DNA from: a virus
DNA length: 27,901 nucleotides
Virus record (IMG/VR): IMGVR_UViG_3300032288_002065
Location: 1-27,901 of that record
Reading direction: 5' to 3' (one strand)
The notes under the pieces are model-generated. The model was given only the letters and a program-made list of their open reading frames with translations. It was not told the DNA's origin and did no database searches. Shown piece after piece: positions 4,980 through 23,293 of the stretch (within the stretch, counting starts at the first letter, position 1; each line of letters starts with the position of its first letter). The translations under genes and the position numbers were made by a program.

Positions 4980-5759
4980 TTATCCCAAGTTGGAAAACTG
5001 CGGACCCGCGTAGTTATAGGTCATCGGCGTGCCCCCGCCATAAGTGGACGGCATGTTGCGAAGATACTGCATCATCAACTGATTTTGTTGATACCCTTGC
5101 GCCGCGCCGGCAACGCCGGACAGCGCCGCGTTCAGCGCATTGGCCGATCCCGCATACCCCGACGCCCGCGCCGCGCCGACATCCGCCAACGCTTGCCCGC
5201 CCGCCGCGCCGAAGCCGCCCGCGGCACCGGACAACGCCCCGGCAGCCTGCTGGCCGGAAGCCATGAGGTTCTGAAGCGGCGCATACCGTGCCTGCCGTTC
5301 AGCCTGGTATCGCTGGAAGGCGTTCTGATACTCCTGCGAGGCCAGATCTTGGCCGTACCGCTGGATGCCCTTGAGCGCCGATCCGGACAGTAGGCCGCCT
5401 CGCGCTGCTGCGCTGCGTTCCAGCGCCTTCATGCCCTCGGCCATGCGGAATCCATAGCCGGGGTCGGCCTCGAATTGGGTCTGACTGAACGGCTGCGTCA
5501 GTGAGCCATAGCCCGCGGAGGCGCGGTCGCCGCGCAGCCCCAGAAGGCGCATCAGTTCGTTCTGCCCTTCCAGACCGGCCTGCTGATACGGCGACAGGAA
5601 TTCCTGCTGCCGTCCAAACATCTCGCGTTGCAACGCCAGTTGTTCCCGAGCGGCCTGCGCTTGGGCCTTTGCCGCTTTTTTAGCGCCGCTGGCACCAATC
5701 AGGCCGCCTAAAATTGACCCGCCAGCGGCGATACCGGCAGCAGCAACCGCAAAAGTCAT
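4980..5759 (-). CDS. Ejection/DNA-transfer protein (P22 gp7 position)
   Basis: This 259-residue protein begins with a small-residue, glycine-rich hydrophobic segment (about residues 4-24, with GGSILGGLIGASGAKKAAKA). A Gln/Arg-rich helix follows, then a central region with YGFRMAEGMKALERSAAARGG, which is common in phage DNA-transfer proteins, then alternating Gly/Ala helices. The N-terminal glycine-zipper-like stretch would suit membrane insertion during DNA ejection. It overlaps the cupin gene stop by 4 nt (ATGA). It is the first of three ejection-type genes, and its motif makes it the best supported of the three. Confidence 0.7.
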   Translation of the reverse strand: MTFAVAAAGIAAGGSILGGLIGASGAKKAAKAQAQAAREQLALQREMFGRQQEFLSPYQQAGLEGQNELMRLLGLRGDRASAGYGSLTQPFSQTQFEADPGYGFRMAEGMKALERSAAARGGLLSGSALKGIQRYGQDLASQEYQNAFQRYQAERQARYAPLQNLMASGQQAAGALSGAAGGFGAAGGQALADVGAARASGYAGSANALNAALSGVAGAAQGYQQNQLMMQYLRNMPSTYGGGTPMTYNYAGPQFSNLG

Positions 5760-17398: not shown

Positions 17399-17563
17399 TC
17401 ACTCCAGCAGAATCAACCCGCCGTCTTCTTGGACGAGGTTGTCTCCATTTTCACAAAGAAGATTGCTTTGGGTTTGCTCACTAGCGCGGCCAGAAAATAG
17501 TGTAGCAATGCCGCCAAGCCCAATGGCAAGTGCGTTACGAATGTCGGCGCCGAAAAAACTCAT
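17399..17563 (-). CDS. 54-residue protein with tail-type ENGDNL/EDGGL motif
   Basis: The frame from ATG 17563 encodes 54 residues: MSFFGADIRN, a hydrophobic/Gly stretch (about 10-24), and a C-terminus CENGDNLVQEDGGLILLE. The ENGDxL-QEDG-LLLE pattern recurs in phage tail-fibre and tail-hub proteins, often as tandem beta repeats. It overlaps the upstream stop by 4 nt (ATGA) and ends 5 nt before the tailspike start, carrying the spike's ribosome site. It may be a small tail component or a remnant of a fibre gene end. Function is unknown. Confidence 0.55.
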   Translation of the reverse strand: MSFFGADIRNALAIGLGGIATLFSGRASEQTQSNLLCENGDNLVQEDGGLILLE

Positions 17564-17868
17564 TGCTTGTTAAGAGGCTTGCAGTACGCCGTGCCATCCG
17601 TGCTACCAATCCGCAAAACGCTGACGCGCCAAGGAGCACCGCTCGTATTCAGCGGAACCGCAAACGGAATTGGCGTATAGGCCGGAATCGGCGTACTGGC
17701 GTTCGTTGCCGTGACGCCCACGCCAACTTCAACGTAGCATGGTTGATCGCACCAGACCAAAACCCCCTCCGCGCCAGGCAACCACGCAGTTGTGTTGCCC
17801 GCCGTGGCTCCCGCAGTTGCGGTGTAAGCCGGGTAAGCCGTTTGATCCAGCGATTTTAGAAGTTCCAT
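17560..17868 (-). CDS. Small beta-rich virion-module protein
   Basis: This 102-residue protein begins MELLKSLDQTAYPAYTATAG and has strands such as GVLVWCDQPCYVEVG and PIPAYTPIPFAVPL, ending YCKPLNKQ. It is hydrophobic in a beta-strand pattern without a membrane helix. AAGGA precedes the ATG. It lies between the Dps-like gene and the spike. Similar short proteins are recalled near tail genes in environmental phages, but no function is established. A minor head or tail component is the likeliest role. Confidence 0.55.
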   Translation of the reverse strand: MELLKSLDQTAYPAYTATAGATAGNTTAWLPGAEGVLVWCDQPCYVEVGVGVTATNASTPIPAYTPIPFAVPLNTSGAPWRVSVLRIGSTDGTAYCKPLNKQ

Positions 17869-17877
17869 AATCGGTCC

Positions 17878-18240
17878 TTAAGCAAGGAATTTGATTTTGT
17901 AAATGGTTGAAAGATACAAGCCGACAATTTCGTCGATAATGTTTTGTATCGCCGTATCTGATTTGTCGCACACGTCGTATCGAACACGCTCAATCTCGGC
18001 AAGCTGGTCTTCCAAAAAGTCCAGCACGTTAGCTGTTTTGCGAGCGTTAAGCAGCGAGATAGGGCCGACTAATCCGTGCCGGCCTTGGTAGGCTTCGGCA
18101 AACGTATCGGCAAGATCGACAACCTCGTCATAAAACTTATTCAGGGCCTTATGCTTGGCGTAGCTGCGGGTATTCAGATGAACCGAGTGCGTTACGTCTC
18201 GGGCCAAAAACAGCATCCCAATGAAATCGGCAGCTTTCAT
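17878..18240 (-). CDS. Dps/ferritin-like phage protein (DUF5856-type)
   Basis: This 120-residue, all-helical-looking protein starts MKAADFIGMLFLARDVTHSVHLNTRS. His18, His30, Asp45 and Glu49 have the same spacing (12, 15, 4) as the E. coli Dps ferroxidase ligands His51, His63, Asp78 and Glu82, and both share a D-T-x-A-E ending. The remaining Dps ligand, Asp67, corresponds to Asn34. Dps stores iron and protects DNA from peroxide. At 120 residues this protein is shorter than Dps (167) and may be a minimal four-helix bundle. It starts 2 nt after the portal gene with AAGGA upstream. I believe this corresponds to Pfam DUF5856, from memory. The iron-binding role is inferred. Confidence 0.65.
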   Translation of the reverse strand: MKAADFIGMLFLARDVTHSVHLNTRSYAKHKALNKFYDEVVDLADTFAEAYQGRHGLVGPISLLNARKTANVLDFLEDQLAEIERVRYDVCDKSDTAIQNIIDEIVGLYLSTIYKIKFLA

Positions 18241-18242
18241 AC

Positions 18243-20489
18243 TTATGTTCCTTGCGGCACAACCGTAGGCATCGGCGTGGCTTGCTGACGTTCTTCCTGC
18301 CGAGCCATTTCCGGCGATTCTAGCCCTTCAGGCGGCATTTCCGCCATAATTGGCCCTGACATAGATTGAGGCGGAATCAAGTCTCCCGCGTCTTGCGCGG
18401 CGGCCAGCGTGCCCATCACGATGTCTTGAATCTGCTCAAACGTCATGCCGGCCATTGTGGCCGAAATTCGCTTAGTTTCTGCGTCAAAGGCTTTAATCTT
18501 CGACTCAAACTCCCGAACCTGTGCTTCGCGGGCTTCAAACGACTGATTTACGTTCATCAGCATGTCGTGCATCTGCTGCATCTCCGCAGACATCGCTTCG
18601 ATCTGCTGTTGTGCGGCCTGCAACGCCGGATCGTTATCCTGGTCTGCCAGCAACTTCGGATCGATAGTCTTGCGAAGCCGCGCAGCCATCTCTTGAGCGC
18701 CCGGCCAGTCCATATTCTTCACAAACAAATCGCCCGCCACCGCCCACAGTGTCGGGTTGCCCTGAAGAATCTGCGCCATCGCGTCCATTGCTTCTTGACG
18801 CTTAGTCAAGTAGCTCGGGCCAGTTGCGACCACTACGTCGTAACGCCCCAAAGACGGGTTATAGATTTTCTCAATCACGACGCCCGTTTCATCTACGATC
18901 TTTCTGACCGGCTCCGGCTGCGTTGGGTCGATCTTTGCCATGCTGGTTTCGCCGTCGATTCCGATAATCCGCGCAATCCGCCGCGTGTCGTAAATCTTCG
19001 GAATCAGGTCAACAAGTTGGCGCGTGACGTAGCGGACAGCGCGGGCTAGGTTATCTACATAGTGATATGTTCCCGTGTCGCTCTGCCGTTCACGCGCCAA
19101 AATTGCCCGACCAGACCGCTCGTTGGACTGCGCTCCAAGGCTTGGGTCGTACTGGCCGGTAGTGGATTTAATGTCATCCGAGGCGCCCATTTTGGCCTGG
19201 ATAAGCCCGGTCTGAGGCAGCGGTGGGGCGGCGCGTTGAGGCAACGGCAGCACGGCGCCTTGGCCGTCCGTGACATCAGGATTGACTTCCAAATACGGCC
19301 AGTTTTGCGTGTTAGCCGTCTTCCACTGGTATTCATACCCTTCAAACTGCCCGCCGTAGCCGATAAACGGCGCTTTGGGGGCCAAGGCCAGCATTTCCGC
19401 TTCTTGGCTCGTCCAGTAATTGTACATCCGCTGCGCGTCTTTGGCGTTGCGGACAATACCGGAGATAAAAATGCGTCCATCAACCTGAAATTCGTTACCG
19501 ACAACGCGGATAACCGGAATCCAATCGCCTGCCCACTCACGCTCTTCGAGGACTTCAAACCCGTTGGTTTTCATCCACATGACGCGCTTTCGATCTACGC
19601 GGCGTTCGCGCACCGGCTGAAGCCCCATTGCACGAAGGGCTTTATCTTGAGGTGATCCTTTAAAGACTGTTTGATCGCCAGGGAACAAGTACAGCGTGTC
19701 GTCTTTATGGTCAATGTAGAAGTATTCCGCGATGCGGATCGTATCTTCCGTAATCCACTGGCTGATGTCTTGGTCACCGATGCCCTGCGCCATGATGGAC
19801 GACAGCGGCGCGGCGTTGGGGTACAACCGCTCGTACTCTTCCTTCATCAAGTCTTCGGTAATAAAGCACCACTCTGCATCTGCCCCGCAAGGGTCTTGGA
19901 TGAGAGGGTCCATGTAGACGCTAAAACTGTTGCGAATCCGCGCGATCTTGATGTCTTGGTCAAAGCTGTCTTCGTAGCAATACTCAGTCAAAAGACGAAT
20001 ATAGCCTTCGCCATACGTCACTTGGTTTTCACAAGCTGTATCGTAGGCAACGTCCGCGTCCGACATATATTCAATGTGCCGAACAATGCCGTTCAGCACT
20101 TCGGCGACTTCAATGTCTGCCTTGTCGTTGACGGGAATGACTTTGCCCGCAGGGCGGTTTTGCCGCTGCTCATTGGTAATTTGCCGAACGTGTTGCGGCA
20201 GCTTGTTGATCGTCAAACAGGGCCGGGCGTTAACGGTTTGCCCCTGAACTGAGCCTCTGGTTGCCAGCACATCTTGCGGCCACTGCCACTGGTTGTCCGG
20301 CGAACCGGCCATAAAGCGCAGATCGTCCAGCTCATCTTCGCGGCTTTCCGAATACGCGCCGATTGCTTGCCGCAACCGATCGCGCATCATCTGCAACGTA
20401 TCCCGATGGTCTTTTTGGTTAGGACCACCCCGCGCGGACACTTTGCCCGCGCCTTCAATTCCTGTCGGATCTTGCTTTAGCGTAGCCAT
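18243..20489 (-). CDS. P22-type portal protein
   Basis: This 748-residue protein matches the P22 portal family (P22 portal is 725 residues). The wing/stem region has RVMWMKTNGFEVLEEREWAGDWIPVIRVVG (about residues 300-335). Motifs near 420-460 (DDIKSTTGQYDPSLGAQSNERSG) follow, then a Gln/Met-rich helical barrel-type C-terminus. The portal forms a dodecamer at the packaging vertex, binds terminase during packaging and gp4 afterwards. Its ATG shares one base with the stop of the upstream basic protein (TAATG). The C-terminal Pro/Met/Gln-rich tail (from about 700) is low complexity. Confidence 0.92.
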   Translation of the reverse strand: MATLKQDPTGIEGAGKVSARGGPNQKDHRDTLQMMRDRLRQAIGAYSESREDELDDLRFMAGSPDNQWQWPQDVLATRGSVQGQTVNARPCLTINKLPQHVRQITNEQRQNRPAGKVIPVNDKADIEVAEVLNGIVRHIEYMSDADVAYDTACENQVTYGEGYIRLLTEYCYEDSFDQDIKIARIRNSFSVYMDPLIQDPCGADAEWCFITEDLMKEEYERLYPNAAPLSSIMAQGIGDQDISQWITEDTIRIAEYFYIDHKDDTLYLFPGDQTVFKGSPQDKALRAMGLQPVRERRVDRKRVMWMKTNGFEVLEEREWAGDWIPVIRVVGNEFQVDGRIFISGIVRNAKDAQRMYNYWTSQEAEMLALAPKAPFIGYGGQFEGYEYQWKTANTQNWPYLEVNPDVTDGQGAVLPLPQRAAPPLPQTGLIQAKMGASDDIKSTTGQYDPSLGAQSNERSGRAILARERQSDTGTYHYVDNLARAVRYVTRQLVDLIPKIYDTRRIARIIGIDGETSMAKIDPTQPEPVRKIVDETGVVIEKIYNPSLGRYDVVVATGPSYLTKRQEAMDAMAQILQGNPTLWAVAGDLFVKNMDWPGAQEMAARLRKTIDPKLLADQDNDPALQAAQQQIEAMSAEMQQMHDMLMNVNQSFEAREAQVREFESKIKAFDAETKRISATMAGMTFEQIQDIVMGTLAAAQDAGDLIPPQSMSGPIMAEMPPEGLESPEMARQEERQQATPMPTVVPQGT

Positions 20490-21077: not shown

Positions 21078-22603
21078 TATGATGCCATCCACGATCCGGT
21101 TGTTTGCCCCTGCTGCGAGTACCGTCGCAGCGCCTTCTCTCGCGCCTCCCGGTGGGCAACCGGGTACGCGAACGTCACCGCCAACGCGTCAGCGGCGTCC
21201 GGAGACGCCAGCCCGCGGGCCTTCATTTCCTTCTTGCCCTCCAAGAAGATCGTTCCCGCCGAGTTGGGCTTGGTTTTTGGCCCCGTAAAGTCGGCTTTTA
21301 GCTGCCGATCCTTCGGGATCGCCGCCGTTCGCAACCAATCGCGCATTGCACCCCACATTTCGGCGCGTTTGTTGCCCCACATGACCGGATTCTTGGCCTT
21401 CCAGCCAAAATTGACGCCCCGGACCTTGTACCGCTGCTCGTTTAGCCGGTCCAAGATGCCATATCCTAGCCCGCCTTCGTCAATGACGGTCAGCGCCGGC
21501 CGGTACTCCTCAATGGCGTCGATGATGTGCCCTACGGTGGTCATCGTGTCGTCGCCCTGGTAGCGTTTCAACGCGATCAGGTCGCGCCCTTGCCGCACTG
21601 CAATAACCGTCGAGTCCATGCCGCCTCGCGCCGGGTCGATCCCGATGACAATCGGCGCCGTTTCGTCCTTGTACTTGGCCCGCGCCGCCGCCTCGTCCAC
21701 CATCCGCGGGGAGATGAACTGATCGTCGCCCGAGGACGGGAACTCGCCGTACACCTCTACCCGCGCCTGGATAGAGTCCTCGCCGTATTCGGCAATGATC
21801 TGCTCATAGACGGCCTTGTCGGTGTCCTCGACCGTCCGGGCGTCGATCTTTTCGCTGCTCCAGAAGTCCCGTTTGGACCCCTCGACCGCCTCGAAAAAGT
21901 ACCCTTGATTGCGCCGAGGGTTGCTGAACGCGAACCAGTACCGGTCCAGAATGTTCTCGGTAAAGAAGCCCGCGCCGACCGCCCAGATGGGGTCCGGTAT
22001 ACCGCTGGCCTCGTCAAAAATGAGCATCATGCCGTCGTGGTTGTGGACGCCCGCGTAACTGTCGGGGTTTTCTTCCGACCACAGTTTGCCCTCCGCCGCC
22101 CAGTAGCGCGTGCCTTTCTTCAGGTCGCGCTCGACCAACTCTGTAAGCCACTGCGCCGGGGTGATCTTGGTTGCGCTGATCTCCCACCAGTGCGAGTTGA
22201 TGAGCATGGCGCACCACTTGGACAGCTCGCCCCAGGTCACTGACCGTAGCTGCGCTTCGGAGTTGGCGCTGACGATGACCGACGCCCCGATGCGCGTCGT
22301 CATCATCCAGAGGATGAGCCAGCTCACCAGCGCCGATTTGCCGATACCGCGCCCGGACGACACCGCCAGCCGCAGCGTGTCCATCGTGACCTGACCGCGG
22401 TTTTCGGCCAAGTGCTGCTTGATCTGCCTAAGAACCGTCCGTTGCCACTTGCGCGGCCCCTTGAACTTGGCAAGCGGCGTATTGGCCTGCCCCCACGGGA
22501 AGGCAAACAGCACGAACGCTTCCGGGTCGTCTGCGATGTTCGGCTGCCACAGCCGGGTCATCAGCAGCATCTCCTCGTCGGCGCTATAGATCGGTTTCTG
22601 CAT
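21077..22603 (-). CDS. Terminase large subunit (ATPase-nuclease)
   Basis: This 508-residue protein has both terminase domains. The ATPase has Walker A GRGIGKS (residues 84-90) and Walker B MMLIFDEAS (about 192-200, with D197 and E198). The RNase H-like nuclease has GIDPARGG (D323), VIDEGGLG (D375) and a late acidic motif SPDAADALAV. It cuts concatemeric DNA and drives it through the portal. The gene overlaps the small-subunit gene by 20 nt and is followed by three basic proteins, then the portal. Length and motifs are complete, with no missing catalytic residue seen. Confidence 0.93.
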   Translation of the reverse strand: MQKPIYSADEEMLLMTRLWQPNIADDPEAFVLFAFPWGQANTPLAKFKGPRKWQRTVLRQIKQHLAENRGQVTMDTLRLAVSSGRGIGKSALVSWLILWMMTTRIGASVIVSANSEAQLRSVTWGELSKWCAMLINSHWWEISATKITPAQWLTELVERDLKKGTRYWAAEGKLWSEENPDSYAGVHNHDGMMLIFDEASGIPDPIWAVGAGFFTENILDRYWFAFSNPRRNQGYFFEAVEGSKRDFWSSEKIDARTVEDTDKAVYEQIIAEYGEDSIQARVEVYGEFPSSGDDQFISPRMVDEAAARAKYKDETAPIVIGIDPARGGMDSTVIAVRQGRDLIALKRYQGDDTMTTVGHIIDAIEEYRPALTVIDEGGLGYGILDRLNEQRYKVRGVNFGWKAKNPVMWGNKRAEMWGAMRDWLRTAAIPKDRQLKADFTGPKTKPNSAGTIFLEGKKEMKARGLASPDAADALAVTFAYPVAHREAREKALRRYSQQGQTTGSWMAS

Positions 22604-23051
22604 GGTCTGCGGGGGTCACGGTGCGCGGCAAGCGCGTTGGCTCGGTGTGCTCCAGCGCGGGGAGCGTCTTACCCTCCAGCACGCGTCCCTGCGCGGCCTG
22701 TAGCGCGTCGGTGATCGAGATGCGGTGCTGAACGTCTACGCTCAGTTCATGTTTGGCCGTCCAGTCGTGCCGGTGCTGAAGGATCGCCAGCGCCGCCTTG
22801 GCGTCGCCGTTTTCGGCGGCCTCGTGCAGCTTGCCCGCAATCTTTAGCTCGGCGTCCGCTTTGCCTTTGAGCGCCGCCATCTCGGCCAATGGGTCAAATT
22901 GGCATAGCCGACGGTACTCGGTCGGCAACATCCCGGCAGCCAGCGCCAGGGAGTCGCCTTTCAGTCCGCGCGCGGCGGCGTTGTAGATGGCTTCCAGTCG
23001 CGCCTCGGTGGCGCGGATTTCGCGGGGTGCGAGCGGGAGGTTGCGGAACAT
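22584..23051 (-). CDS. Terminase small subunit
   Basis: From ATG 23051 this is a 155-residue protein starting MFRNLPLAPREIRATEARLEAIY. A helix-turn-helix-like region lies at about residues 14-50 (ARGLKGDSLALAAGMLPTEYRRL), then a helical oligomerisation segment (about 60-95). An in-frame extension to 23291 would add 80 residues made partly from the 15 bp tandem repeat and is unlikely. The protein probably recognises the pac site and hands DNA to the large subunit, whose gene overlaps its 3' end by 20 nt. No strong SD precedes the ATG. Family call comes from position and the HTH pattern. Confidence 0.75.
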   Translation of the reverse strand: MFRNLPLAPREIRATEARLEAIYNAAARGLKGDSLALAAGMLPTEYRRLCQFDPLAEMAALKGKADAELKIAGKLHEAAENGDAKAALAILQHRHDWTAKHELSVDVQHRISITDALQAAQGRVLEGKTLPALEHTEPTRLPRTVTPADHAETDL

Positions 23052-23242
23052 CTTGCGCCGATCATAAACGCGGTTGCACTGCCGCGGCAAGGGCTGTGCG
23101 TAATAAACCGTGTTGCGGTGAGAATTTTGCAAAAAAATTTGTGCGACCCCTCTATAGCTATGACCGGTCGCCCGTCGGCCCTCCCCCCCACCCCTTCGGC
23201 TCGGCGCTCGCGGCACTCGGCCCCCGAGCCTGGTGCGGCGCA

Positions 23243-23287
23243 GCATGTGGCAGTGCGGCATGTGGCAGTGCGGCATGTGGCAGCGCG
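23243..23287. repeat. Three tandem 15 bp repeats (GCATGTGGCAGTGCG)
   Basis: Three head-to-tail copies start at 23243, 23258 and 23273. The first two are identical and the third has one change (GCG for TGCG). Each carries the core GGCAG, which recurs at 23297, 23386 and 23395 outside the array. Fifteen-base spacing does not match whole helical turns exactly. It may be protein-binding iterons or a small slippage array. Confidence 0.85.
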
Positions 23288-23293
23288 GCATTC

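Follow-up and report, generated by a model that had tools for sequence, protein, structure and literature searches.

The window, by which we mean the whole 27.9-kb virus record analysed here, carries a P22-like set of head genes comprising large terminase, portal, scaffold, coat and a gp10-like head-closure protein. The gene for the P22-type portal protein (18243–20489, minus strand; phrog_156, E = 3e-127) is followed directly by a gene for a 120-residue protein of the DUF5856 (phrog_858) family (17878–18240, minus strand; Pfam PF19174), predicted to form a Dps-like four-helix bundle. The junction reads TAA-GT-ATG, leaving a 2-nt gap between the two genes, and so bears out an earlier note on this DNA that had placed the gene immediately after the portal. 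The next gene (17560–17868, minus strand) starts 9 nt past the stop codon of the DUF5856 gene and has an AGGA upstream; its 102-residue product matched no Pfam or PHROG family, and in relatives it often trails the DUF5856 gene (49–76% identity). No promoter or terminator rose above chance level around the DUF5856 gene. The encoded protein has 14 Lys + Arg against 17 Asp + Glu (pI 5.7) and contains no Trp; pI values computed for other family members range from 4.5 to 5.8.

Two observations concern other parts of the window. A 15-bp tandem repeat (23243–23291; 3.3 copies, 97% match) encodes MPHCH repeats in the N-terminal part of the open reading frame at 22584–23291, taken in its longest reading; the true start of that gene probably lies further in. 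The product of 4980–5759 (minus strand) matches the T7 internal virion protein gp14 weakly (E = 3.3e-4, below the curated cut-off) and is possibly an ejection protein.

Assignment to the DUF5856 family is secure: the window protein matches PF19174 with E = 1.4e-22 (80.9 bits against a gathering cut-off of 34.6) and phrog_858 with E = 2.1e-27 over residues 2–119, and PF19174 is matched by all 53 members of a diverse homologue set. A tblastn search with the window protein returned 1,414 phage records, mostly from T4-like and Kuttervirus phages. The family includes the product of T4 rI.-1 (RI.-1), the gp217-type proteins of Kuttervirus phages and the 'ferritin like protein' of Salmonella phage SE_PL. 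Existing annotations vary: Kuttervirus homologues are labelled 'structural protein', and some other homologues have inherited from the family the name 'DNA binding protein' or 'starvation-inducible transcriptional regulator'. We rejected the last of these, the phrog_858 label, as a name transferred by similarity, since nothing in the present analysis supports DNA binding. A host origin of the gene was rejected as well, because DUF5856 is rare in cellular genomes, turning up in 2 of 398 from the one bacterial phylum searched, including the genome that had been used to set the search. One relative (L153) is located in a 4.2-Mb betaproteobacterial chromosome assembled from a metagenome, which suggests betaproteobacterial hosts. 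The median dN/dS over 198 close pairs is 0.04, indicating strong purifying selection on the DUF5856 gene.

We examined gene order by searching for the portal first, taking the 80 portals most similar to that of the window (70–89% identity), a sample that covers the close clade. Among relatives whose sequence extends far enough downstream, all 79 have a DUF5856 gene, nearly always immediately behind the portal, and in 57 of the 79 the two genes overlap by 4 bp (ATGA). No DUF5856 gene was found behind the portal in three distant P22-like phages (Rhodoferax phage P26218, Pseudomonas phage PAE2 and Xanthomonas phage PBR31); the open reading frame in that place in PAE2 matched no family. The DUF5856 protein is thus not required for the assembly of such heads, and its presence throughout the close clade together with its absence farther out marks it as an added late gene that became fixed in the lineage of the window.

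The AlphaFold2 model of the window protein, computed from 53 sequences (window plus related loci), has a pLDDT of 94.3 and a pTM of 0.88 and consists of four helices (residues 3–21, 27–55, 72–90 and 96–118) arranged as a bundle. Compared with solved structures by VIA-align, the top-ranking matches are nearly all Dps proteins, the best being MsDps2 (8hwz; Z = 14.2, rmsd 2.3 Å over 118 aligned residues); E. coli Dps (6gcm) scores Z = 12.9, bearing in mind that, by the tool's own account, values near 13 can be reached by unrelated helical bundles. A Foldseek search of the PDB gave weak matches (best E = 0.16). A model of the T4-type RI.-1 protein (taken from IMG/VR locus L109, whose protein is the same as the T4 query; pLDDT 88.9) has the same top match (Z = 14.1). 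Sequence profiles agree with the structural comparison, and it is mainly for this reason that the fold evidence carries weight: in an hmmsearch of the PDB the family profile found HP-NAP at E = 2.5e-5 and many Dps proteins below 0.05, and hhalign matched the family to an alignment of 22 bacterial Dps-type proteins at E = 9.8e-6. The predicted fold is therefore a four-helix bundle of the ferritin type with Dps as its nearest relative, as the earlier note had supposed.

Similar predicted folds turned up elsewhere among viral proteins. In BFVD, two proteins of giant viruses (A0A481ZC29 and A0A7D3V608, from Pithovirus and Fadolivirus; function unassigned) resemble the window protein with E = 8e-4 and 6e-3. 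Two 'prohead protease' entries from uncultured phages (A0A6J7XDU5 and A0A6J7WIS1) contain a region like the window protein (Foldseek E = 0.7–0.85, TM 0.6–0.7); judged from their models, they are possible protease–ferritin fusions, and such proteins would connect Dps-like domains with the assembly of heads.

The earlier note had read His18, His30, Asp45 and Glu49 as a copy of the H-x11-H-x14-D-x3-E spacing of the Dps ferroxidase site. The residues and their positions are as described, and pure chance was rejected as an explanation of the pattern by shuffling (about 4 of 10,000 shuffles of the window protein, P about 4e-4), by its presence in 1 of the 202 open frames of at least 60 residues in the window, and by the conservation of residues in homologues. 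The first ligand, however, is His21 (codon 18178–18180, minus strand). In phmmer, hmmsearch and hhalign profile–profile alignments, His21, His30 (18151–18153), Asp45 (18106–18108) and Glu49 (18094–18096; all minus strand) pair with E. coli Dps His51, His63, Asp78 and Glu82, respectively, and His21 also pairs with His25 of HP-NAP. His18 (18187–18189, minus strand) falls instead on the variable Dps position Lys48, a column occupied by Lys, His, Arg or Gln. These alignments place a 3-residue gap in the loop between helices A and B (the AB loop). In three relatives (L108, L161 and L162) that loop is 3 residues longer and the H-x11-H spacing counts from the equivalent of His21; for these reasons the His18 register was rejected. 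With an AB loop 3 residues shorter than that of Dps, the 'exact' x11 spacing from His18 is a coincidence of loop length, and the ferroxidase ligands are nonetheless present.

Conservation follows the corrected register. His21, His30, Asp45 and Glu49 are invariant in 53 of 53 family members, as are their four counterparts in 22 of 22 aligned Dps proteins. His18, which the earlier note had expected to be conserved along with the other three residues of its set, is nearly so (52 of 53); the exception (L107) has Arg at position 18 and keeps all four ligand residues. His18 may thus have a role of its own, perhaps as an extra ligand replacing the acid lost at the position of Dps Asp67, which in the window protein is Asn34 (18139–18141, minus strand; hhalign), as had been noted. 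This position holds Gly, Asn or Gln in 51 of the 53 members and Asp in one, compared with Asp or Glu in 21 of 22 Dps proteins. The shared DTxAE end also holds, DTFAE here matching DTMAE of E. coli Dps. The initial Dps reading is thus partly supported, being right in substance and wrong in register.

The resemblance of one family member to ferritin has been published once. Sajous1 gp217, a DUF5856 protein 39% identical to the window protein, was named 'ferritin' on the basis of a Phyre2 match (96.7%) and was detected by mass spectrometry in CsCl-purified virions with 10 spectra, a count to which the authors' own caution applies that low spectral counts may reflect contamination (PMC10892097). 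A true Dps has been reported in virions of the podophage Privateer (PMC7881722), and Lactobacillus phages and Gratiaviridae also encode Dps-like proteins (PMC6669764, PMC8008677). The open-licence papers searched contained no match for the name 'DUF5856'. Relative to those papers, what appears to be new is the assignment of the ligands, their invariance across the family, the connection with T4 RI.-1 and the conserved place of the gene behind the portal.

We consider it probable that the window encodes a virus-specific, minimal Dps-like protein that is expressed from the head operon and acts as a ferroxidase with a metal site at a two-fold intersubunit interface. In the predicted structure, His21 and His30 lie at one end of the bundle, at the end of helix A and the start of helix B, and Asp45 and Glu49 some 15–19 residues (roughly 22–28 Å) farther along helix B than His30. 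At that distance the two His residues and the two acidic residues would be unable to share a metal within one chain; they could share one solely across the two-fold subunit interface, with subunits packed head to tail as in Dps, an arrangement of the Dps type and not of the ferritin type. The site would bind Fe(II) and oxidise it, probably with H2O2 or O2, and thereby avert Fenton damage to phage DNA and proteins, either at a late stage of infection or inside the particle. As the gene belongs to the head operon and comes right after the portal, its product would be available when heads are assembled. We infer the subunit dimer or cage, the ferroxidase activity, the protective role and the possible association with virions from these comparisons. 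Judging from its sequence and model, the window protein most likely functions as a ferroxidase; the activity could be weak, different or absent given the loss of the Asp67 acid and of the residues equivalent to Dps Trp52, Arg83 and Trp160. Dimer and cage contacts of the Dps type are likewise putative for a protein whose model has no BC helix.

A head-associated role is plausible from the portal synteny and, by analogy, from the homologue reported in purified virions. The same two observations, and the translational overlap in relatives, would also fit a metal-binding component of head assembly or of the virion, internal to the portal or head, in which the metal holds a subunit interface together and performs no ferroxidase chemistry. 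The 'structural protein' annotation of the Kuttervirus homologues and the loss of the Asp67 acid and of the aromatic residues of true Dps lean the same way. Yet other P22-like phages lack the gene, the T4 and Kuttervirus relatives lie outside head modules, and two His, an Asp and a Glu that stay invariant at Dps ferroxidase positions in distant phages are better explained by redox metal chemistry; we regard a purely structural protein as unlikely. It is quite improbable that the protein is directed at the host or times lysis, as proposed for T4 RI.-1. T4 rI.-1 is a homologue and belongs to the rI operon, and its over-expression from a plasmid is described as slightly extending lysis inhibition (Golec et al., 2010, as reported in the review PMC6832632). 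The effect as given there is slight, however, and an equal delay could arise if the protein altered cell physiology through iron or redox chemistry; moreover, RaK2 has a homologue but neither T holin nor RI antiholin (PMC3622015), and the podovirus group has its gene behind the portal, away from the lysis genes.

The Dps fold, and the homologue names that imply DNA binding by family transfer, might suggest a protein that condenses or coats DNA like E. coli Dps, a role that the earlier note had also entertained. This is very improbable: condensation finds no support in a protein with a pI of 5.7 and no basic tail extending past its helices at either end, and the other members computed are similarly acidic. 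Least probable of all, and in our view scarcely credible here, is an iron carrier in the tail that serves host entry, the 'ferrojan horse' idea for Vi01-like phages. It was proposed for Sajous1 gp214–217 on proteomic grounds, but infection was about as efficient in tonB and feoB mutants, so that entry by iron uptake was not supported (PMC10892097), and the gene in the podoviruses sits in a head module.

The ferroxidase reading can be extended to the whole family. On this broader view, which we put forward as doubtful but possible, DUF5856 would be a virus-specific miniferritin family with a pared-down Dps intersubunit di-iron site, whose member in the present lineage is translated together with the portal and travels in the virion, and T4 RI.-1 would itself be a miniferritin. 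If so, the phage would ship a ferroxidase with its DNA, and the weak lysis phenotype of T4 RI.-1 would reflect iron or redox effects. Through this analysis a family of 'function unknown' found in more than 1,400 sequenced phages acquires a fold, a metal site and a chemistry that can be tested, and T4 rI.-1, a gene whose effect on lysis inhibition had been reported yet left unexplained, is linked to this family. The analysis also suggests that phages commonly need to control iron or peroxide, and that one lineage of aquatic podoviruses does so with a protein encoded beside the portal.

Within its own family the window protein is a clear member, having the same length as other DUF5856 proteins and the same invariant His21, His30, Asp45 and Glu49, but the place of the gene differs: behind the portal in the podovirus group of the window, after rI in T4, and near the primase in Kuttervirus. 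With the Dps miniferritins (PF00210; E. coli Dps, HP-NAP, MsDps2) it has in common the four-helix ferritin bundle and the ligand set that Dps carries on helices A and B (His51, His63, Asp78 and Glu82). It differs from them in its AB loop, shorter by 3 residues, and in Trp52, Arg83 and Trp160, which are invariant in 22 of 22 aligned Dps proteins and are not kept in DUF5856 (position 22 is Leu in the window protein and Trp in 16 of 53 members, and position 50 is mostly Ala). The BC helix that lies at the two-fold interface of Dps is absent from the window model, in which residues 56–71 are predicted to be non-helical, and the basic N- or C-terminal DNA-binding tail of some Dps proteins is absent as well, the helices spanning residues 3–118 of 120. 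The PF00210 profile gave no match to the window protein up to E = 10 and matched 4 of the 53 homologues, all with E of at least 0.02. The window protein is Dps-like and is not a Dps; we do not file it there because it lacks the Asp67 acid, Trp52, Arg83, Trp160, the BC helix and the tail. The canonical phage Dps proteins (of Streptomyces and Lactobacillus phages, Gratiaviridae and Privateer) are also phage-encoded and of the Dps type, but are longer PF00210 proteins, that of Privateer having 154 residues and matching PF00210 with E = 1.2e-11; phage records matching E. coli Dps number 125, compared with the 1,414 that match the window protein.
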